DNA of 64,000 bases from positions 31,341 to 95,340 of the forward strand of contig NZ_WVEM01000007.1 of assembly GCF_009847015.1 (NCBI RefSeq), read 5' to 3'. This document shows, one piece after another, positions 1 to 30,367 of the stretch (positions within the stretch are counted from its first letter, which is position 1; each line of letters starts with the position of its first letter). The position numbers and the translations under genes were made by a program. The DNA is from Sunxiuqinia indica (GTDB lineage Bacteria > Bacteroidota > Bacteroidia > Bacteroidales > Prolixibacteraceae). The notes below the pieces were generated by a model. The model had not been told where the DNA came from. It saw nothing but the letters and a program-made list of their open reading frames with translations, and ran no database searches.

Positions 1-108
1 TAATTCAGAATCGTAGCTCAGTTGTGCATTGAATTCGCTTAGCGCTTCGCCGGTCAACTCCCCGCTAAGGTACTTATCAATTAGTTCTATTTTATTCTTA
101 CGTATCAT
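1..108 (-). CDS. Partial hypothetical protein (N-terminal 36 residues) downstream of a sigma factor
   Basis: Only the N-terminus lies in the window; the reading frame is open to the window edge from an ATG at 108. It begins MIRKNKIELIDKYLSGELTG and continues with a short acidic stretch. The pattern D-K/Q-Y-L-x-G-E-L is common at the start of Bacteroidota membrane proteins encoded just after ECF-type sigma factors, often with TPR or CHAT partners; that role is inference here. It lies on the same strand as the sigma factor at 642-1226 but 533 bases away, with a sigma-like relic in between. Nothing can be said about its C-terminus or function. Confidence 0.5.
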   Translation of the reverse strand, partial: MIRKNKIELIDKYLSGELTGEALSEFNAQLSYDSEL

Positions 109-641
109 CTTTCCAAAATTTTGATTTTCAATATCCTCTTCTATTTTTTTTTACGGGATTTATTTGAGATGTTTATACAAAATTTCCCGTAGCACAAGCA
201 TTTAATGGCTATTGTTTTTAGGCGTTCTTTGATTTTTACAGTCAAATCACACTGTTTGTTTAAAAAAAAGCGAGCAAAAATTATACTTGAGAAGTTCGGT
301 TGGTTAGAAACAATCATTAAAAAAACAGATCGTTATTACCGAAATCTTTGGGTAAATGTTCTTGTAGAATTGCTGTAGAATTAGAAGTCAACTCGGAATC
401 TCGTGAGAAATTCTTCGTTCGTGTATTTTATCATTTTCACTCTTTTATCCTTAAAACAGGCAAAAGGTAACCCCTTGCGACGTAATTTAATTTAGAATTT
501 GTGTGTATTGCTTCTAAATAGATATTCTTTTTGGGGTTATTATTGGACGTGGTTCCCTAAGTAGTACGATGTTTTTCAATAAAAAACGGTCGTTTATTGA
601 GAATAGAAAATAAAAATGTCTTTGGGTAATTAAAGGTATTG
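109..641. other. Intergenic region between sigma factor and partial gene
   Basis: This 533-bp AT-rich gap holds no open frame of useful length apart from the sigma-like relic at 381-434. On the minus strand, just upstream of the relic, the segment GGGGTTACCTTTTGCC (about 464-479) looks like a 5' leader motif, but its role is not known to me. No hairpin terminator with a clear U-tract was seen. Confidence 0.4.
381..434 (-). pseudogene. Sigma-factor N-terminus relic (17 codons)
   Basis: An ATG at 434 opens a 17-codon frame reading MIKYTNEEFLTRFRVDF before a TAA. Its first ten residues closely match the start of the neighbouring sigma factor (MVNYTNEELLNGI), including an identical YTNEE, and the DNA around it is also similar. 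There is no continuation of sigma regions 2 or 4 in any frame nearby. I read it as the 5' end of a second sigma-factor gene whose body has been lost, possibly leaving the promoter region that now serves the partial gene at 1-108. A short leader peptide is the alternative. Confidence 0.4.
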
Positions 642-1226
642 TTAAGCGTTGTCTTCCAATATTTTTTTATACTCGATATCCTGCTTAATACTTTTTACCA
701 GGTACTCTTTGCATTTATATTTTCTCTTTTTTGCGTATTTTTCACTCTGGTACCCCATAACCTGAGCTATTTGTTTGAGGGGAACCTTATCAAAAAAAAG
801 TTGTAAGATCTTCTGGCAGTCTTTGCCTAGATTTTTAAAATGTTTTTGATAGAGTTTGTATTTTTCATTTAAATCTGCCGTTTCTTCAAAACTGGTATCA
901 TAAATATCTTCATTGAAATCATGATTGTCTTGAATTTTTTCACGCTCGTTTTTTCTTTTTTCGAGCTGTTTCAGCCATAGAAACCTGCATACAGAGTACA
1001 GATAAGTTTCGAATGAGCAATCAAGGACAAGATCATTGGCTTTTAACTTACGATAGATAATAATAATTGCTTCCTGGAAAATATCATTCGAATCCTCATC
1101 ATCTCCGTTATTCTTTTTTATGAAGAAGTTAATTTTATAAAAGAAGTTTTTGTAAATGTACTGGAGAATTAAATTATCATTCCTCAGAATTCCATTGAGA
1201 AGCTCTTCATTCGTATAGTTAACCAT
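642..1226 (-). CDS. RNA polymerase sigma-70 factor, ECF-like
   Basis: A 194-residue protein with the two-domain layout of ECF sigma factors, which direct core RNA polymerase to a small set of promoters. Residues about 20-92 form region 2, with the NDIFQEAIIIIYRKL helix (47-61) that contacts the -10 region and core enzyme. Residues about 128-178 form region 4, with a helix-turn-helix around 148-172 followed by a Lys/Arg-rich tail. The linker carries many charged residues. It is very AT-rich and lysine-rich. No FecR-type anti-sigma gene is adjacent; the next gene on the strand is the partial protein at 1-108, the arrangement seen with CHAT/TPR-type sigma loci. Target promoters are unknown. Confidence 0.85.
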   Translation of the reverse strand: MVNYTNEELLNGILRNDNLILQYIYKNFFYKINFFIKKNNGDDEDSNDIFQEAIIIIYRKLKANDLVLDCSFETYLYSVCRFLWLKQLEKRKNEREKIQDNHDFNEDIYDTSFEETADLNEKYKLYQKHFKNLGKDCQKILQLFFDKVPLKQIAQVMGYQSEKYAKKRKYKCKEYLVKSIKQDIEYKKILEDNA

Positions 1227-22229: not shown

Positions 22230-22961
22230 ATGACAAAGATAAACCAGGAAAAGCGTGTGAAAAAAAGTCGGTGGCCACTCTACATGAGTTTAGGATTATT
22301 ACTTTCGATTGTATTACTTTATTTCACTGTTCCAGACGTAAATAGCTTTTTTAAAGAGGCTTTTGAAATATTGACCAGCGATAATAATCAGCGAATATCA
22401 AACTGGGTTGGTAAGCTTGGTTTTTGGGGGCCGGTTTTTATCATATCAGCAATGGTGTTTCAGATGTTTTTACTCATTATTCCATCTCCTTTGCTCATGC
22501 TTGTTTCGGTGCTGGCCTATGGCTCTTATTGGGGAACTTTAATCTCCGTGGCTGCCGTAGCAGTTGCTTCAAGTATAGGCTACCTGATCGGCCGCTATCT
22601 TGGAGAAATAGCAATCGCTCGTTTAATAGGAGGCCAGAAAGAAAAACAATTAAAATTTTACGTTGAAAAATACGGTGTGTGGGCAGTAGTCATTACGCGC
22701 CTGGCTCCTTTTCTGTCAAACGATGCCATTAGTTTTGTAGGCGGCATTTTGCAAATGGGATATTGGCGGTTTATTGGCGCAACATTAGCAGGAATCTTTC
22801 CTTTGGCTGCTTTGATTGGCTATTTTGGCGAAAACAACGATCGAATGAAAACAGGCTTAATTGGGGTGTCGGCTTTGAGTTTGATCTTGTTCGTTGCTTA
22901 TATCATTTACAACAGCAAAACGAAGTTTCATAAGTCTAAGTCGGGAAAAAATAGTTCTTAA
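22230..22961 (+). CDS. TVP38/TMEM64 (VTT-domain) membrane protein
   Basis: A 243-residue inner-membrane protein with a basic N-terminus and about six helices. The VTT/SNARE-associated signature is present as a re-entrant segment before VASSIGYLIGRYLGE and in TRLAPFLSNDAISFVGGILQM. Relatives (DedA, TVP38, TMEM41B) are linked to lipid scrambling, undecaprenyl-phosphate recycling or membrane homeostasis; which applies here is unknown. Its stop codon overlaps the 3' end of hydF by four bases, convergently. Confidence 0.82.
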   Translation: MTKINQEKRVKKSRWPLYMSLGLLLSIVLLYFTVPDVNSFFKEAFEILTSDNNQRISNWVGKLGFWGPVFIISAMVFQMFLLIIPSPLLMLVSVLAYGSYWGTLISVAAVAVASSIGYLIGRYLGEIAIARLIGGQKEKQLKFYVEKYGVWAVVITRLAPFLSNDAISFVGGILQMGYWRFIGATLAGIFPLAALIGYFGENNDRMKTGLIGVSALSLILFVAYIIYNSKTKFHKSKSGKNSS

Positions 22962-24181
22962 CGTCCGTTCTTATAGACTTCCAGTGCCGCAGGAAATGGC
23001 TGAAGTGCCCGTTCGAAAATACCCAACGAATAGGCAATGGTCAACCCATAATTGGTTAGCGGAACTCCTGCTTGTTTAGCTTTCATAATACGCGAAAGCA
23101 TTGCACGACGGTTCCACATGCAGGCTCCACAGTGAATAATGATTTTATAGTCACTCAGGTTTGGAGGAAAGTCGTGCCCCCGCATATGTTCAATTTCCAA
23201 TTTACCACCAACATATTGAGTGAGCCAGCGTGGTATTTTTACCGTGCCAATATCTTCGCCAATCGGGTGGTGCGAGCAAGCTTCGGCAATCAGCACTTTG
23301 TCGCCTGCTTTTAGCTTATCGATGGCCATAGCGCCTTTGACCATTTCAGACAAATCTCCCTGATGGCGGGCAAATAAAATGGAGAAGCTGGTTAGCGGAA
23401 TTTCGGGAGGCGTGTCGGCAGCTACTTTTAAAAAAGCCTGACTATCGGTTACGACCAGCTTGGGCGGCTTGTTAAATCTGGAAATGGCTTCGCGCAGTTC
23501 ACGCTCTTTCACCACCATGCAAAACGAGTCGCCATCCAGCAAGTCACGGATACTTTGAACCTGCGGGAGAATCAGCCGTCCTTTGGGAGCTTCTTTGTCA
23601 ATCGGTACAACCAGAATGGCCGCTTCGCCCGGACCAACCAAATCGGCAACAATGCTGGGGCGGTTGATAAAATCTTCAGGTGCTTTTTTCAAAATCGTTT
23701 GGCGCAATTCGGCAATTCCGGCCTTCGTTGTTGCCGAGGTTTCAATAACCGGCAACTTGACACTTTCGAGGATATTGATGGTGTCGAAAGCAGAGTCGTA
23801 CAAGTCTGATTTGTTAAAAACGACGATGATTGGAATGTTCAGCTCTTTCAATTCCTGAAGCGTTTTTTCTTCAAACTCACCCCAGTCGTTGCTATTCGAA
23901 ATAAGGATAGCCAAATCAGTTCGGTCGAAAACCGCTCGTGTTTTCTGAATTCGCTGTTCGCCCAGTGCCCCTTCGTCGTCGATTCCGGCGGTGTCGATAA
24001 ATAGTACCGGCCCCAGGGGAAGCAGTTCCATGGGCTTTTCTACCGGGTCGGTTGTGGTTCCGGCAACGTCCGATACAATGGAAACCTCCTGTTGGGTCAG
24101 GGCATTCAGGATCGATGATTTACCAACATTGCGACGGCCAAAAAGCCCGATGTGCAAGCGAAATGATTTGGGTGCTTTCAT
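22958..24181 (-). CDS. hydF: [FeFe]-hydrogenase maturation GTPase HydF
   Basis: A 407-residue scaffold GTPase that carries the 2Fe precursor made with HydE and HydG and inserts it into apo-hydrogenase. The G domain starts with the P-loop GRRNVGKSS (15-23) and has DTAGIDDEG and NKSD. The [4Fe-4S] ligands are Cys302 and His304 (CSHHP) and Cys351 and Cys354 (HCGACMWN), in the positions expected for HydF. I chose the ATG at 24181; the upstream ATG at 24256 would add a 25-residue tail not seen in the family. It is separated from the other hyd genes by a roughly 4.7-kb accessory region. Confidence 0.95.
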   Translation of the reverse strand: MKAPKSFRLHIGLFGRRNVGKSSILNALTQQEVSIVSDVAGTTTDPVEKPMELLPLGPVLFIDTAGIDDEGALGEQRIQKTRAVFDRTDLAILISNSNDWGEFEEKTLQELKELNIPIIVVFNKSDLYDSAFDTINILESVKLPVIETSATTKAGIAELRQTILKKAPEDFINRPSIVADLVGPGEAAILVVPIDKEAPKGRLILPQVQSIRDLLDGDSFCMVVKERELREAISRFNKPPKLVVTDSQAFLKVAADTPPEIPLTSFSILFARHQGDLSEMVKGAMAIDKLKAGDKVLIAEACSHHPIGEDIGTVKIPRWLTQYVGGKLEIEHMRGHDFPPNLSDYKIIIHCGACMWNRRAMLSRIMKAKQAGVPLTNYGLTIAYSLGIFERALQPFPAALEVYKNGR

Positions 24182-24745
24182 GCAATTCAAATTTGCCCGA
24201 AAAGTACAAAGGATCGTGATGCGAATCAATGTTTTTGGGGAAGAAAAAGAACCCAAGACCTCTAAGTTGCCTGAAAGGGAGGACTTTCGCCGTTGGGAAT
24301 TTGTAATCGTCAGCTTATTGTTTTCTAATCAAAACTCTCGCAGGCCGTTTTGTTTCGCCTGGTGGCGAACTTGGGGACTTGACTGCCCCGTGCTTTGAAC
24401 TCGTCATCCTGAACTTGTTTCAGGATCTTTCAGCGGGTTGCCGCTATCTCACCATTTCATCATCCAAACTCTTGATTCTATTTTTTAATATCTTGTGCCT
24501 GGTTTTTGCAGCTTATGTTGGGGCGTTGCCCTAAGCCCCATTTCATTTCTTTTCCTTAGATGAAAAGAAACGAAACAAAGAAAAATCAAGTCAAACCGAA
24601 CCCTCGGCCGGGCGTTTTGACGGCCCACGCGTTTTTCGCCTGGTGGCGAACTTGGGAACTTGACTGCCCCGTGCTTTGAACTCGTCATCCTTACCTTGAT
24701 TCCACAGCAGACTGGTATAGAATGCTGAAACCCCCGATTCTATTG
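24182..24745. repeat. Dispersed-repeat-like non-coding region with a 58-bp direct repeat
   Basis: Two copies of a 58-bp sequence lie at 24353-24410 and 24634-24691 with one mismatch. Copy 1 runs into a short palindrome, ATCCTGAA (24406-24413) and TTCAGGAT (24419-24426), the GTCATCCTGAACTTG type of element that recurs in many bacterial intergenic regions. Between them a GC-richer tract with TTGGGGCGTTGCCCTAAGCC and an AAAAGAAACGAAAC purine run looks like another dispersed Bacteroidota repeat. Open frames here are translations of repeat DNA and I do not call them genes. Confidence 0.6.
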
Positions 24746-24892
24746 ATCCCCCGGCAGGTCTGACCCTCCCCTGGGCATATTGACCCGTCAATTGGCCAGT
24801 TTTCTGTGCCAACTGGCAACTTTTTTGAACCAATTGGCGACCCGGAGCCTCCAACCTGCCATTTTTTTGATTTAACCGGCATGGTTGACAAT
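24746..24892. repeat. Degenerate 21-bp tandem array, seven units
   Basis: Seven consecutive 21-bp units can be laid out from 24746 to 24892. The best preserved core, CCAA-N-TGGC or close variants, recurs at 24809, 24830 and 24851 with T-rich spacers. The minus strand is open through the array (24691-24891) and reads as a seven-residue repeat with cores such as KLPVG, WPIDG and SPIG. It has no spacer structure and is not a CRISPR. It may be a worn-out heptad-coding repeat. Confidence 0.6.
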
Positions 24893-25200
24893 TATTTTGG
24901 TTTAAAATGATGAGTACCGTTAGCGATCGTTTTTAAACGACTCACCCCACGGCTGCGAGCGAACAAGGAGACAGTTTGATTATTCTACGTGTTAACAACT
25001 TCCTAAAAAGAACTATTGTTTAGTAAATAAGTTATGGTTAAATTCACTGATCCTTTTTAGTGTTGCATTTATCCACCCTAATTGGTGGCAACGAGGTGAT
25101 TTCTTAAAGTATATAGGCGAAATATAATACGTCTGGTGGATTACACTTACGTTGAACGGCAACTAGAACGGAGCATTATCTCAACCAAATTGATTAAATT
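24893..25200. other. Upstream region of the accessory ATPase
   Basis: About 300 bases of AT-rich DNA with no open frame. GTTGAAC at 25151-25157 fits the loose attC core GTTRRRY, but this 7-mer is too degenerate to count alone. No -7/-33 pair was convincing. The change to low GC begins here and continues through the next two genes. Confidence 0.3.
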
Positions 25201-26724
25201 ATGAAGCTAAATGATACAAAAGTTAAGAAACTACAAAATCTTATTAGAGATTCATTTAGAATTAGACCTAATCATGACCCCGTATATGTCGACGTATCAA
25301 ATCATTTGGAAAGGTTAGGTTCGAGACAACATCAAATTATTTTTGGCAGAAGGGGTTCTGGTAAATCCTGTTTAGTTGTACATTTTAAAAACAAGGAATG
25401 TAAAAAACTCAATATACTACCTATCTACATTGATACCGATGAGATAAAACGACTTGGATATCCTGACATACTTATTCGGTTGATTCTTTCTGTTATGGAA
25501 AAGACACCAGCAGCAAAGAAACGTTTTAGACGAATAATTGGTAGGAAAAATGATATTCAGAAACATATTGATAATCTAAGAAAACTACTAAGTCAAGCCG
25601 AAAATCGAAGTGTTAAAAAAGAAGAAAAACAAGATAGTAAATATGATGGTGGTGGTAGCTACCATGGATTTAGAGCTGGTGCAAGCAAATCATATAGTAC
25701 TGGTCAGATTAGTGAATTTCAGGAGTGGAAATTAGATACTCTTGAAAGATATTTGAGTGATTATAAACAATCATTAGTTGATGCATTGGATAAAACAAAC
25801 TTCTCATCCTCATTCGTATTTCTTGATGATTACTACTTAATTAAGAGGGATAAACAACCAGATGTGATTGATTATTTGCATAGATTATTGCGCGGGACAA
25901 ATTATTATCTAAAAGTTGGAACGGTTCGGCATAGAACAGAATATATGCGAAATGACGGACAAACTATCGGTGTTGAATTGCAGGAAGATATTGAAGAAAT
26001 AAATTTGGATAGGACACTTGAAGATTTAAATTCAACAAGTACTTATATATCTCAAATGTTAAATTCATTAGCTGAAAAAGTAGATTTGAAAGACCCGGTG
26101 ACAGAGCTTTTTAATCAACAGGCTTTTGAAAAATTAGTTATCGCTTCTGGTGGAGTTCCAAGAGATTTTCTTACAATATTCGTTGATGCTGTAGATAATG
26201 CATTATCAGTAGGTAGAGAAGAGTATATAACACCAACAAATATTTGGAAGGCAGCAAGTTCTTTATCTTATCGCAAGAAACTTAAAAATTTAAGAAAAGA
26301 TGCTTCAAATGATGCTGATTCTTTAGAAAGAGTTTACAGGGACTTAATGAGGTTTTGTTTACAAGAAAAGAAGAGAACATGTTTTTTAATTTCACAAGAT
26401 GAATGCCAAATGCATTCATCTGCCCATGAGTTAATTCAACAACTTATGGATTTTAAATTATTACATATTGTAGAACCAGACACGTCTGCTGCTTCCGGAA
26501 GAAAAGGGAGATTTGAAGCATACACCTTAGATTTCTCTTTGTTTATGGAGCCAAGAAAGCGAAACATAACAATTATTGAATTTTGGAAATTTGATTCTGG
26601 CAATAGACGTATCGGAGTTCGGGAAGCTCCAGTCTATAGTCTTGAGAGAGCCTCAGAAGCAATGCAAAGCGATGATAATCAAGAAACAGAGGAATTGATA
26701 ACAACGGTTGAATTTGAAGAATAA
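25201..26724 (+). CDS. P-loop ATPase of an accessory module (ORC/STAND-like)
   Basis: A 507-residue cytoplasmic protein. Walker A GRRGSGKS is at 49-56 and Walker B FVFLDDYY at 205-212; the region between has a lysine/glutamate-rich and Gly/Ser-rich insert (about 110-170). The part after 250 has helices typical of AAA+/STAND lids (GGVPRDFLTIFVDA) and about 380-460 could be a winged helix (LISQDECQMHSSAHELIQQLMD). It resembles the group of lone ATPases found in defence islands (Sll1717-type P-loop ATPases are one possible home). No nuclease or toxin domain is fused. AT-rich compared with neighbours, so probably transferred. Function unknown. Confidence 0.6.
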   Translation: MKLNDTKVKKLQNLIRDSFRIRPNHDPVYVDVSNHLERLGSRQHQIIFGRRGSGKSCLVVHFKNKECKKLNILPIYIDTDEIKRLGYPDILIRLILSVMEKTPAAKKRFRRIIGRKNDIQKHIDNLRKLLSQAENRSVKKEEKQDSKYDGGGSYHGFRAGASKSYSTGQISEFQEWKLDTLERYLSDYKQSLVDALDKTNFSSSFVFLDDYYLIKRDKQPDVIDYLHRLLRGTNYYLKVGTVRHRTEYMRNDGQTIGVELQEDIEEINLDRTLEDLNSTSTYISQMLNSLAEKVDLKDPVTELFNQQAFEKLVIASGGVPRDFLTIFVDAVDNALSVGREEYITPTNIWKAASSLSYRKKLKNLRKDASNDADSLERVYRDLMRFCLQEKKRTCFLISQDECQMHSSAHELIQQLMDFKLLHIVEPDTSAASGRKGRFEAYTLDFSLFMEPRKRNITIIEFWKFDSGNRRIGVREAPVYSLERASEAMQSDDNQETEELITTVEFEE

Positions 26725-26726
26725 AA

Positions 26727-26861
26727 GCCGACGCACAATGTATATACAAAATAGGCGTAATAACAGTAAACTAAGCGGTTTTAGCCCGCTTCAACTTTGT
26801 AACGGCTTGATAAGTTTGAAGCCCGCAATCGCATACTTTGCATATTCTAGAACGTTAGATA
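26727..26861 (+). repeat. attC-like structured element between accessory genes
   Basis: The outer arms TATATACAAAATAGGCG (26741-26757) and CGCATACTTTGCATATT (26830-26846) pair imperfectly (13 of 17), and inside them GCTTCAACTT and AAGTTTGAAGC form a second stem. The element ends in AACGTTAGAT, with GTTAGAT (26854-26860) fitting the integron core GTTRRRY. It fills the gap between one gene's stop and the next gene's start, as attC sites do in cassettes. No integrase gene is visible, and a matching 5' RYYYAAC core is not clear. Confidence 0.45.
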
Positions 26862-26877
26862 CAACATGCATTAAAAT

Positions 26878-27615
26878 ATGGCAATAAATACGAAAAATAG
26901 TTGTCAAGCAATTTCGACGAAAAATAAACAGTGCAAAAATAAGAGATTGAGATTTTCGCAATATTGCTTTTATCATCAACCTAAAGTCATACCGCTGTTA
27001 ACACTAATATTGGGTGGAATTATTGGGCTAATAATAGATATCACTTGGATTGCAATATTCCCGCCGAAATCTGAAACAAGGCGAAATGAAGTTGTAAGAA
27101 GAATTTCCATGGAGGCATCGGGAGCTATAAAATACACAGACGCCTTCTTAACGGAATATCTGAATGCGCTTGGAGAAGACAAACTAATTAAGCAAATCAG
27201 AAATCTTCAAATTCAAGATGCTAGTAAATACTTTGACAGCGATTTAGATATTGAGCTTGAAAAAGCATTTCAAAATTCAAAAATGCTTGAAGGTAGTAAC
27301 ATGTACAATTCTAATGGTCAACAAATAGCCTATATAGCAAATGCTCTTTGGAATGTGAAAAACACAAGAGCAGCCCTTAATGATTTCTTAAAAAAATATG
27401 GTTCCGTTGACGATGAGTTAGTAACTACAGTTATCCAAATGAAAGACCGAGCAGATGTTGTAATAATGATTTTAAATTATGCTTTCAAAAATCCTAACGA
27501 ATTAAAAATAAAATTTAGAAAAGGACAAATGGAGCCTTTCGCAGATTTTTTATCAGGTTTTTACATATACCAATTTGAGTGTAAAACATTAATTGAAAAT
27601 GAAATTAAGAATTAA
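26878..27615 (+). CDS. Cys/His-cluster membrane protein of unknown function
   Basis: A 245-residue protein. Residues 1-35 carry a likely metal site with Cys9, Cys19, Cys30 and His33 (CQAISTKNKQC then YCFYH), a pattern found in several uncharacterised families. A membrane helix follows (about 38-60), then about 180 residues of charged helical sequence with no motif I recognise. It may sit in the membrane with a metal-binding cytosolic head. It follows the ATPase gene after an attC-like element, so the two may be independent cassettes rather than an operon. AT-rich like the ATPase gene. Confidence 0.55.
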   Translation: MAINTKNSCQAISTKNKQCKNKRLRFSQYCFYHQPKVIPLLTLILGGIIGLIIDITWIAIFPPKSETRRNEVVRRISMEASGAIKYTDAFLTEYLNALGEDKLIKQIRNLQIQDASKYFDSDLDIELEKAFQNSKMLEGSNMYNSNGQQIAYIANALWNVKNTRAALNDFLKKYGSVDDELVTTVIQMKDRADVVIMILNYAFKNPNELKIKFRKGQMEPFADFLSGFYIYQFECKTLIENEIKN

Positions 27616-27816
27616 ATTCAGCCCATAATAATTGGATGTGGCAGGCGGGGATTTTAGCGGTCTGACAGGATTTCTGTTGGAAATCCCACCTAACTGCAGA
27701 CAAGTGACCTCAGACTGTCCAACAACCAACTTACCTGGTGTAATCCTTTGGCAAGTGGTGTAACAGATGTAACAAACGTAGAAATCAACATACCTGAGTA
27801 TAATCTTTAAATTGAA
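27616..27816 (+). other. Gap with an LRR-like coding relic
   Basis: A 38-codon frame from 27694 to its TAA at 27808-27810 has no start codon and reads DLRLSNNQLTW near its beginning, which resembles a leucine-rich-repeat consensus (LxLSxNxLT), ending in INIPEYNL. An in-frame stop lies just upstream. It could be a fragment of a lost LRR gene or chance. No hairpin terminator was seen. Confidence 0.25.
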
Positions 27817-28053
27817 ATGATGATGACAATTCTTGGATTTATTGGTGGTTTAGAAATCGTGATCTTACTGATTCTTTTACTCTTCATTTTACTTATTCCG
27901 CTGATTGCACTTATCGACATTTTAAAAAGTGATTTTGAAGGGAATAATAAACTAATCTGGGTGATTATCGTGGTTTTTCTTTCGATAATAGGTGCGCTAC
28001 TTTATTTCTTCATCGGAAGGGAACAAAAAGTAACAGATACAAAACCAAGCTGA
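27817..28053 (+). CDS. PLDc_N-type small membrane protein
   Basis: A 78-residue protein with two membrane helices (about 8-33 and 48-66). The segment ALIDILKSDFEGNNKLIWVI and the end LLYFFIGREQK match the PLDc_N domain (named for its place before phospholipase D nucleases but common as a free small protein). Function is unknown. It is the last gene of the accessory region; its stop is followed by the second 21-bp array. Confidence 0.75.
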   Translation: MMMTILGFIGGLEIVILLILLLFILLIPLIALIDILKSDFEGNNKLIWVIIVVFLSIIGALLYFFIGREQKVTDTKPS

Positions 28054-28596
28054 CCCTTGTTGCTGAGGATTGAAAAAGCTTCATCTCCCAATATTAATAA
28101 GGCTTTTGGGTGCTTTTGATGTTGGAAATAGCTCTTATTCCATCGCGCAGAGGCCTTCTGACACAGCGCAGCAAAGCTATTCCGCGTTGCTGAACGACGA
28201 TTTTATATAGCAGCAAGACCATTCCACAGGTCAGCATCATTATTCCCTTTGGAATCATTGTTATTCTCTATGGAATAATCATTCTGACTTAGAGAATATC
28301 TATTATTCCATCGGTCAGCAAGCTTATTCCACGTGGCAGAAGGGTTGTTCCGTGGCGCATGGTCAACCAGAAGTTGGGTGTTTCCCTGCTGACCTTTATT
28401 CGGCTTTCATGAATCGTGATTGTCTCTGTTATGAGTGGATGAGATGCTGCTCTTATTGACGTATTTCCAGCCTGGCAGGGCAGCTCCCAATGGTAGCAGG
28501 ATGATTTGTTGGGGGTAAGACGGGACAATTGGAACTTTGCAGGAAGGCAAACGTTGAAAATATGGAGGAGACTTTTGACCACGAATGGCCATAAAA
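28054..28596. repeat. Degenerate 21-bp tandem array, eleven clean units and decayed flank
   Basis: Eleven 21-bp units start at 28136, 28157, 28178, 28199, 28220, 28241, 28262, 28283, 28304, 28325 and 28346, exactly in phase. The commonest unit start is TATTCC, followed four bases later by GG/GC then CAG. Less regular copies such as TTCCAGCCTGGCAG (28465-28478) continue to about 28520. On the minus strand the units read as a heptad of the type LLPRGI or MIPKGI. Its CCA-N2-TGGCA core resembles the array at 24746-24892. Stops interrupt most frames, so it is not a functional gene. Confidence 0.65.
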
Positions 28597-28975: not shown

Positions 28976-30367
28976 TTAAAACCCTAATTTATTGATTGCT
29001 TCAGGAGTGATCAGCGCTTCAAATTCACTTGCTGTAAGTAATTTTTCAGTCAGAACAAGCTGGCGAATACTCACTTTCTTGTCCTGAGACTGTTGAGCAA
29101 CTTGGGTGCATTTTTCATAACCCAGTGCCGGAATCAATGCCGTAATAATAGCCGTTGAGTTCAGGACTTGCGCTTTACATTTATCGGAATTGGCCGATAT
29201 TCCCCGAACACATTTGTTGTTGAACCCGCGAATGGCGCGCTCGAGCAGCTGAAGGTTTTCGAGAAGCGTGTGCGCAATAACGGGCATAAAGGGGTTGAGT
29301 TCGAGGGTGCCATTTGACGCCGCCTGTGTAATTACCGTGTCGTTGCCAATGACCTGCATGGCTGCCTGGATGGTAGCTTCGGGTATTACCGGGTTCACTT
29401 TTCCGGGCATCATGGAAGAGCCCGCCTGAACCGGGGGAAGGTTGATTTCTCCAAATCCGGCATCGGGGCCACTGGACAACAAGCGCAAGTCGTTGGATAC
29501 TTTAATCAGGTTGCTGGCACAAGCTTTCAAAATACCGGACACTTCAACAAAAACATCGGCATTCTGCGTGCTTTCAACCAGATTTTCGGCTCGTGCCAGC
29601 GATGTATTTGTAAGCTCCCGCAGTCGGTCGGTTACCTGGAAAATAAATTGACGGGGAGCACCCAGGCCACTACCAATCGCTGTTCCACCCAAATTGACTA
29701 CTCGTAATCGTTCTTCGCATTTGTAAATCCGCCAGCGATCGCGGTTGAAGGCTTCCGCGTAAGCGGCCATCTCGCGCCCCAGCGTGGTTAGTACGGCATC
29801 CTGTAGTTGTGTTCGCCCGAGTTTAACGACATCGGTAAACTCTTTTTCTTTTTGCTGAAAGGTTTCCTGTAACTCTAAAACCGCCTGCTCTAATCGGCGA
29901 AGCAGAAAGATAGCGGCAAGTTTTAAAGCGGTTGGATACGTGTCATTGGTAGATTGATGCAGGTTGATATCGTTGAGAGGAGAGATTGTTTCATAATCAC
30001 CAAGCGGTTTCCCTGCCAGCTGCAGTGCGCGGTTGGCAATTACTTCATTCACATTCATATTGGTTGATGTTCCGGCGCCTCCTTGCAGTGCGTCAACAAG
30101 AACATGGTCGGTCAGCTGTCCGTTGGCCATCTCCTGGCAAGCACGTTCAATGGCGTCCGCTTTTTCATCATCGTTAAAGTACCCCAACTTTCGGTTGATT
30201 TGTGCGCAGGCCAGCTTCACCCAGCCATAGGCTTTCACCAACTCCGGGTTGACGGGGCGTTGTGCCAGCTGAAAGTTTTCCAGCGCACGCGCCGTATGGA
30301 TTCCATAAAGCACATCCGCCGGAATTTCCTTTGAGCCTAAAAAGTCTGTTTCAGTTCGTGTAATCAT
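28976..30367 (-). CDS. aspA: Aspartate ammonia-lyase
   Basis: A 463-residue enzyme of the fumarase/aspartase superfamily that splits aspartate into fumarate and ammonium. The signature GSSMMPGKVNPVIPE (about 316-330) carries the catalytic serine loop, and GAGTSTNMNVNEVIANRA and NDTYPTALK are the substrate-binding segments of class II members. The related fumarase and argininosuccinate lyase are less likely given GTSTNMNVNE and the local context. It is the last gene of a leftward operon with the TM1266 regulator and hydG (38-base gap to hydG). An aspA-like gene with hydrogenase maturation genes recurs in anaerobes; why is not settled. Confidence 0.9.
   Translation of the reverse strand: MITRTETDFLGSKEIPADVLYGIHTARALENFQLAQRPVNPELVKAYGWVKLACAQINRKLGYFNDDEKADAIERACQEMANGQLTDHVLVDALQGGAGTSTNMNVNEVIANRALQLAGKPLGDYETISPLNDINLHQSTNDTYPTALKLAAIFLLRRLEQAVLELQETFQQKEKEFTDVVKLGRTQLQDAVLTTLGREMAAYAEAFNRDRWRIYKCEERLRVVNLGGTAIGSGLGAPRQFIFQVTDRLRELTNTSLARAENLVESTQNADVFVEVSGILKACASNLIKVSNDLRLLSSGPDAGFGEINLPPVQAGSSMMPGKVNPVIPEATIQAAMQVIGNDTVITQAASNGTLELNPFMPVIAHTLLENLQLLERAIRGFNNKCVRGISANSDKCKAQVLNSTAIITALIPALGYEKCTQVAQQSQDKKVSIRQLVLTEKLLTASEFEALITPEAINKLGF

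Follow-up and report, generated by a model that had tools for sequence, protein, structure and literature searches.

The closest described counterparts of the locus considered here are integrons (IntI, attI and attC, as in the Vibrio superintegron), clusters of attC sites lacking an integrase (CALINs) and the XerA-like recombinases of family NF040815. The core of a canonical attC site follows the consensus GTTRRRY / RYYYAAC. We analysed a 64,000-nucleotide stretch of the Sunxiuqinia indica genome (hereafter the window), in which the interval between hydF (22958-24181, minus strand) and aspA (28976-30367, minus strand) holds an accessory module of two genes, one encoding a P-loop ATPase and the other a protein with an N-terminal Cys/His motif. 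This module is most probably a pair of cassettes belonging to a Bacteroidota integron-like system and lying outside its larger arrays.

Excerpts of two papers define IntI by an IntI-specific additional domain (PMC9668308, PMC8138268), and the excerpted text of the second calls this insertion essential to integron function while noting that it is not fully conserved in an integron-like subgroup (PMC8138268). Bacteroidota integrons are on record in a further excerpt (PMC8618304), though as rarities: for the Bacteroidetes, a partial text of the paper on IntegronFinder 2.0 lists one complete integron, that of Salinibacter ruber (PMC9024848). No description of a Bacteroidota system such as the one below was found in the open-access literature, which leaves most subscription papers and all preprints outside. 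Since NCBI names NF040815 'site-specific tyrosine recombinase/integron integrase', part of the system may be known already.

The Bacteroidota arrays resemble integrons in their one-gene cassettes, arranged in tandem on a single strand with an imperfect palindrome behind each gene, in homology that breaks at G^TT, and in a putative attI beside the integrase. Unlike integrons, they have a core of GTTR rather than GTTRRRY, an integrase gene co-oriented with the array, and several arrays in one chromosome with similar attI-like heads; their integrase lacks the IntI-specific insertion and usually bears an extra N-terminal domain. Like CALINs, some arrays come without an integrase as far as the fetched stretches extend, and there are also single sites; unlike CALINs, six such arrays in the closest relative (G004) begin with a site resembling the one behind the integrase. 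Array integrases resemble XerA and NF040815 in sequence, from which most differ in the added N-terminal domain and in their tie to attC-like arrays. As judged from sequence comparison, the system is integron-like in anatomy and traces; we do not file it as a canonical integron because the IntI-specific domain is lacking and the GTTRRRY core is rare.

A family of attC-like elements

The palindrome behind the ATPase gene has relatives in its own genome (G000) at C34 (73% identity over 124 bp, E 1.2e-10, BLAST), C1 and C23. At C34 and C23, successive open reading frames (ORFs) lie on one strand, most of them with such an element behind. Eight elements align between an AAC close to the start, for which the window element has CAC, and a GTT close to the end, both nearly invariant among elements. 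The 19 arm pairs drawn on this alignment consist to 92.8% of standard pairs, and their covariation is 0.635, against 0.220 for shuffled and at most 0.164 for slid controls, a score favoured by deriving the structure from the same sequences. Across 109 elements fitted to the model, covariation is 0.507 against 0.162. The elements are thus imperfect palindromes of the attC type with paired arms, whose covariation stands far above shuffled and slid controls.

A covariance model, R1, was built from the eight elements, the window element among them; as one of the building sequences, it scores 101.9 bits. In its own genome, where 150 of 431 candidates were scored, R1 has 52 matches at E<=1 and 46 at E<=4.1e-4, the eight builders included. 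Matches occur in 49 of 61 genomes (E<=0.01) and, across a phylum-wide sample of 296, in 124 (E<=0.001); both counts include the own genome.

Behind the Cys/His gene lies a shortened element, which scores 111 when compared with an array stretch of the same genome (L155), where the shuffle maximum is 36; R1 alone recovers part of its loop (27655-27684, E 0.1). The short tract adjoining this element also abuts elements elsewhere in the genome and is perhaps an insertion-sequence end. A separate observation concerns a repeat of the same genome containing TCAGACTGTCTAAAAACC, which directly follows the ACCG of several elements (L071 2465-2586, L152 948-1067, L154 6958-7079, L155 843-962); a short piece similar to it stands behind the shortened window element.

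Arrays headed by an XerA-like recombinase

In the loci fetched, 239 of 241 elements have the orientation that predominates at their locus, and they are spaced at a median of 1189 bp over the 166 of 168 intervals below 6 kb. A tyrosine recombinase other than IntI, about 375 residues long and usually 370-385, heads arrays; some stretches around it end shortly past the gene, without an element. Aligned recombinases have common catalytic residues and mostly carry an N-terminal domain of about 95 residues with a WSxTMxCWYIP-like motif, which is repeated in some members and missing in one (L134), and Pfam recognises the core-binding and catalytic parts alone. Against TIGR02249 (cut-off 265), the six array integrases tested reach no more than 202-220 bits, in two stretches; against NF040815 they reach 199-231 bits, with four of the six above its cut-off of 220. 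The catalytic lysine is spaced 58-59 residues from the HxxR motif in four array integrases, versus 99 in two IntIs, and the array integrases lack the additional domain that marks IntI.

For an AlphaFold model of the Sunxiuqinia elliptica integrase (pLDDT 82.5, pTM 0.52), Foldseek returns the integron integrase 2a3v as the best PDB structure (E 6e-17), followed by XerA, with modest TM-scores of about 0.4-0.5; the best PDB matches by sequence are the archaeal Xer proteins 4a8e and 5hxy. In a quick tree with long branches, the three IntI rows other than IntI_G043, whose ORF was wrongly picked, group together.

The position of elements relative to the integrase was read from the best 80 of 562 integrase-related stretches, with R1 elements at E<=0.01. 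This set includes Sunxiuqinia elliptica, Tangfeifania diversioriginum, Draconibacterium, Labilibaculum, Maribellus, Alkaliflexus and Aquimarina and overlaps partly with the other genome sets. All 96 elements lie on the integrase strand; the 265 kb of downstream sequence holds 94 of them and the 677 kb of upstream sequence the other 2. An element is found in 28 of the 38 loci that offer at least 1.5 kb downstream; as in integrons, a same-orientation cassette array adjoins the integrase. Contig ends fall within 1.5 kb past the integrase 42 times, versus 2 contigs that start at most 1.5 kb ahead of it, the pattern that repeats behind the gene would produce. In the phylum sample, elements and integrase occur together in 69 genomes, elements alone in 55, integrase alone in 25 and neither in 147 (odds ratio 7.4, Fisher p 6e-14, uncorrected for relatedness). 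In the S. indica genome, contig C5 opens with the integrase (1-1104, minus strand, 516 bits), cut off before its stop codon. In six genomes of the phylum sample (G606, G470, G620, G462, G490 and G599), a relative of the integrase matches from about residue 90 on, the N-terminal domain being unmatched, and is oriented away from the closest elements listed, an arrangement known from canonical integrons; these genomes perhaps represent a second architecture.

The integron-like anatomy would also fit an ordinary CALIN, that is, canonical attC sites moved in trans by a classical IntI, and a true IntI over the TIGR02249 cut-off is indeed present in 4 of 61 genomes. The S. indica genome has no IntI over that cut-off, holding just tyrosine recombinases below it, as do all 14 control genomes. 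Around the IntI genes of L147 (G012) and L148 (G015), the two neighbourhoods examined of the four, no R1 element lies within roughly 8-10 kb on each side, and a different integrase stands at the array heads. The GTTRRRY core, moreover, occurs in just 21 of 217 elements. We consider a CALIN of this kind improbable and favour cassettes served by the array-head integrase.

Traces of cassette mobility

Homology between array loci was examined in 256 alignments of at least 300 bp, with ends counted in both sequences and insertion-sequence copies included. Alignment ends fall within 10 bp of an element GTT in 88 of 363 cases on the left and 68 of 365 on the right, compared with 1.4% of random positions. 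Twenty-three of the alignments are whole cassettes, whose left ends lie no more than 60 bp, and whose right ends no more than 25 bp, from GTT in each of the two sequences; 20 of these are one cassette of about 605 bp, and four kinds are represented in all. The 605-bp cassette occurs in three genera (G004, G035 and G014), and a cassette of about 660 bp stands at five places in G004, each with ends alike and flanks different. Cassette exchange with junctions at G^TT is therefore seen by comparison only, in about four cassette kinds and with one contrary site, described below. A segment of about 1.3 kb in G004 (L124, L127, L159, L160, L161, L163), probably an insertion sequence by its ORFs, has copies that often start about 30 bp or less from the core GTT of an element, as if targeting elements.

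These alignments also bear on the idea that the palindromes are intergenic repeats, REP (repetitive extragenic palindromic) or terminator-like, and that the genes came by homologous recombination or with another element. Some alignment ends do fall inside elements rather than at GTT, and the window element is isolated, the next R1 matches on its contig being at C37:2942-6356, and folds no better than its shuffles. Whole cassettes in varied contexts with ends at G^TT and a strict polarity behind the integrase argue against this idea and leave it very unlikely.

attI-like sites at array heads

The only array-head integrase found in G004 is followed, past its stop codon, by a sequence (ATAACAACACTGGTGTTGATATACACTA, then GTTG) that reappears little altered at the heads of six further arrays, none with an integrase in the stretches fetched. 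All seven heads lie on the array strand, with no elements before them (2.5-8.3 kb read) and 5-13 after, and no head copy was found on the other strand of this genome; TIGR02249 at E<=1e-30 finds one recombinase there. In G035, a head variant of its own occurs at three places, one behind the integrase and the other two with 1 and 2 elements before them. GTTR lies downstream of all 13 integrase genes read, being a short motif that is frequent by chance; the longer site, beside the integrase and repeated at array heads in both genomes, is the better candidate for an attI. These sites were first chosen by eye from 27 matches to a loose pattern, 9 of them on the other strand; a tighter pattern written from the chosen sites returned the same 7 in G004 and 3 in G035, with none on the other strand.

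At the left edge of the window module, positions 25096-25157 were compared with nine attI-like sites and exceed the best of 300 shuffles for three (L129, L132, L142). A search for a second copy of this edge found none in the S. indica genome at E<=0.1, and the five genomes searched gave the edge itself alone.

The hydF-aspA slot and its cargo

The original prediction described about 4.7 kb between hydF and aspA carrying P-loop ATPase, Cys/His and PLDc_N genes; the interval measures 4794 bp and all three ORFs are present (Table 1). The two insert genes are AT-rich, as had been proposed for the ATPase gene, next to hydF (GC 0.486) and aspA (0.495).

Table 1. Features of the hydF-aspA interval, in window coordinates
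Feature	Position	Strand	Remarks
Non-coding stretch	24248-24986 (about)		Nearly all missing from G004; contains tract A
Degenerate 21-bp tract A	about 24747-24905		
Block in common with G004	24987-25045		85% identical; last homologous DNA left of the insert
Candidate attI-like site or left cassette boundary	25096-25157	+	Core ACGTTGAAC, G at 25151; suggestive only
Putative cassette 1 (ATPase ORF and attC-like element)	25152-26854	+	Candidate G^TT to G^TT; left end putative
P-loop ATPase ORF	25201-26724	+	507 aa; GC 0.331
attC-like imperfect palindrome	26727-26864	+	Core GTTAGAT at 26854-26860; BLAST to C34, R1 match
Putative cassette 2 (Cys/His ORF and shortened attC-like element)	26855 to about 27699	+	Right limit approximate
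Cys/His ORF	26878-27615	+	245 aa, motif N-terminal; GC 0.317
Shortened attC-like element with short adjoining tract	about 27601-27735	+	Loop partly lost; element itself about 27601-27710; comparison with L155 array stretch
PLDc_N ORF	27817-28053	+	PF13396, E 2e-11; ancestral at the locus
Degenerate 21-bp tract B	28130-28360		Ancestral, unrelated to the insert

Eight relatives, each with hydF and aspA on one stretch, have gaps of 2030, 739, 1236, 522, 912, 5301 (G020), 695 and 629 bp. All eight gaps lack both the ATPase and the Cys/His gene; the proposed comparison across relatives thus supports the insert as accessory DNA. In the closest relative, G004, hydF is 98% identical, and the block at 24987-25045, PLDc_N and tract B are kept, with an unrelated ORF of 284 residues where the insert stands. 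The slot is variable, since G004 has a different ORF there. That ORF (L034 10941-11795) presumably bears a type IX secretion C-terminal domain.

Both insert genes are rare. Of 61 genomes, 2 carry the ATPase, one of them its own; the other copy is about 33% identical and broken up at two contig ends. Among 393 sampled genomes of the order it is present in 3, again counting its own, and a further search of genome-collection contigs found no relative. The Cys/His gene was detected in 1 of 384 genomes, its own. The ATPase is weakly similar to Sll1717-family ATPases (NF047389, 45.4 bits, below the cut-off of 75) and weakly matches the anti-phage model NF053860 (23.5 bits, cut-off 370), and distant relatives (23-27% identical) occur on Burkholderia plasmids and in a Bradyrhizobium phage. 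A phmmer search of PDB with the ATPase returned nothing at E<=1, and a single-sequence AlphaFold run gave no usable model (pLDDT 35). The Cys/His protein matches zf-TRM13_CCCH below the cut-off (E 0.015).

The rarity and AT-richness of the two genes, together with the distant Sll1717-like, plasmid and phage connections of the ATPase, would suit a cargo island, of defence or another kind, whose two products cooperate and whose attC-like element is incidental. PADLOC gives no convincing match of either protein to a known defence model: the ATPase has a single weak match (mad8, 16.4 bits, E 0.0012) and the Cys/His protein none, so the suggestion of a defence module is not borne out. The absence of the Cys/His gene from all other genomes of the 384 and the element placed between the two genes also count against such an island, which we regard as unlikely. 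Two independent cassettes are likelier than the proposed new two-gene system, because one recombination-site-like element separates the genes and a further one stands behind the Cys/His gene. The cassette reading would accommodate a defence role of the cargo, and a conflict-related role is a guess that we hold as possible, if doubtful.

The original prediction also had the module landing in a repeat tract and bracketed by exact 21-bp arrays. Two tracts with a 21-bp period do lie on either side, with lag-21 identities of 0.49 (A) and 0.52 (B); in 2000 simple shuffles the mean was 0.25 and the maxima were 0.42 and 0.35, respectively. Exactness and pairing did not hold up: adjacent 21-mers agree at 7-17 of 21 bases, the unit of tract A differs from that of tract B, Tandem Repeats Finder makes one call within the tracts (24789-24838), and the tracts are not paired flanks of the insert. 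Because G004 carries tract B and PLDc_N without the two genes, both are ancestral to the insert. Tract A sits in the stretch mostly missing from G004, and the nearest blocks common to the window and G004 around the insert are 24987-25045, beyond tract A, and 27872-28320. The presence of tract B without the insert and the unlike units rule out the tracts as insertion borders, and we give almost no credence to insertion into a 21-bp repeat tract. Tract B (L034 12068-12289 in G004) corresponds to a YSLWN-like repeat of seven residues, in an open frame in G004 and with a stop codon in the window; 21-bp tracts of this kind may be decayed coding repeats. By eye, near-identical non-coding copies (CGCCTGGTGGCGAACTTGG...) are also apparent at 24350-24412 and 24630-24690, inside the stretch that G004 mostly lacks.

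A proposed mechanism and its weight

In the mechanism we propose, a recombinase of about 375 residues, with an XerA-like catalytic part, usually an extra N-terminal domain and no IntI-specific insertion, would act on folded attC-like elements. Recombination would take place at G^TT with the attI-like site downstream of the recombinase's own gene or, alternatively, with further copies of it at other chromosomal places, and genes would thereby be captured, stored and shuffled. The array-head integrase would have placed the window pair in the hydF-aspA spacer. Computation shows the element family with its covarying arms, the arrays on a single strand and their place behind the integrase, cassette homology that stops at G^TT, and attI-like heads repeated in two genomes. 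We infer three points of this scheme: that the array-head integrase is the recombining enzyme, that its substrate is single-stranded, and that the window pair arrived in this way. Bacteroidota probably have an integron class of their own, with an XerA-like recombinase, an added N-terminal domain, no IntI insertion, and one integrase serving dispersed attI-headed arrays as well as stray cassettes; we hold this with somewhat less assurance than the assignment of the window pair.

Several observations weigh against the cassette reading. Among the elements, the rarity of the canonical core has been given above, and 22 of 239 have no GTT at the expected place; single-strand folding of the window element shows no excess stability over shuffles (z 0.07 and 0.18). 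Ten of the 38 loci with sufficient downstream sequence have no element, six of them in Bacteroides, Phocaeicola, Parabacteroides and Xylanibacter. Of the 124 element-bearing genomes in the phylum sample, 55 have no integrase match at E<=1e-60, and of the 94 integrase-bearing genomes 25 have no element matches, few candidates per genome having been scored. The majority of alignment ends lie away from GTT. At one site common to G000 and G004, the last element and the DNA downstream are conserved, unlike the DNA immediately upstream; homology there starts on the element's AAC side instead of at GTT. This contrary site, and the count of four cassette kinds rather than 23, slightly lower our confidence. 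At the locus itself, the left edge does not exceed shuffles for the other six attI-like sites, those of G004 included, so that its resemblance to an attI-like site is weak and suggestive only. No empty hydF-aspA site is known, G004 having another gene there, and the hydF-aspA stretches of L034-L044 contain no attC-like elements.

Implications for the Bacteroidota

If the arrays work as proposed, cassette capture would be common in a dominant phylum and would have been missed by IntI-based searches, and the IntI-specific insertion would be dispensable in a Bacteroidota lineage. One integrase serving several attI-like heads would constitute a distinct architecture. The arrays form a large pool of putative cassette genes.

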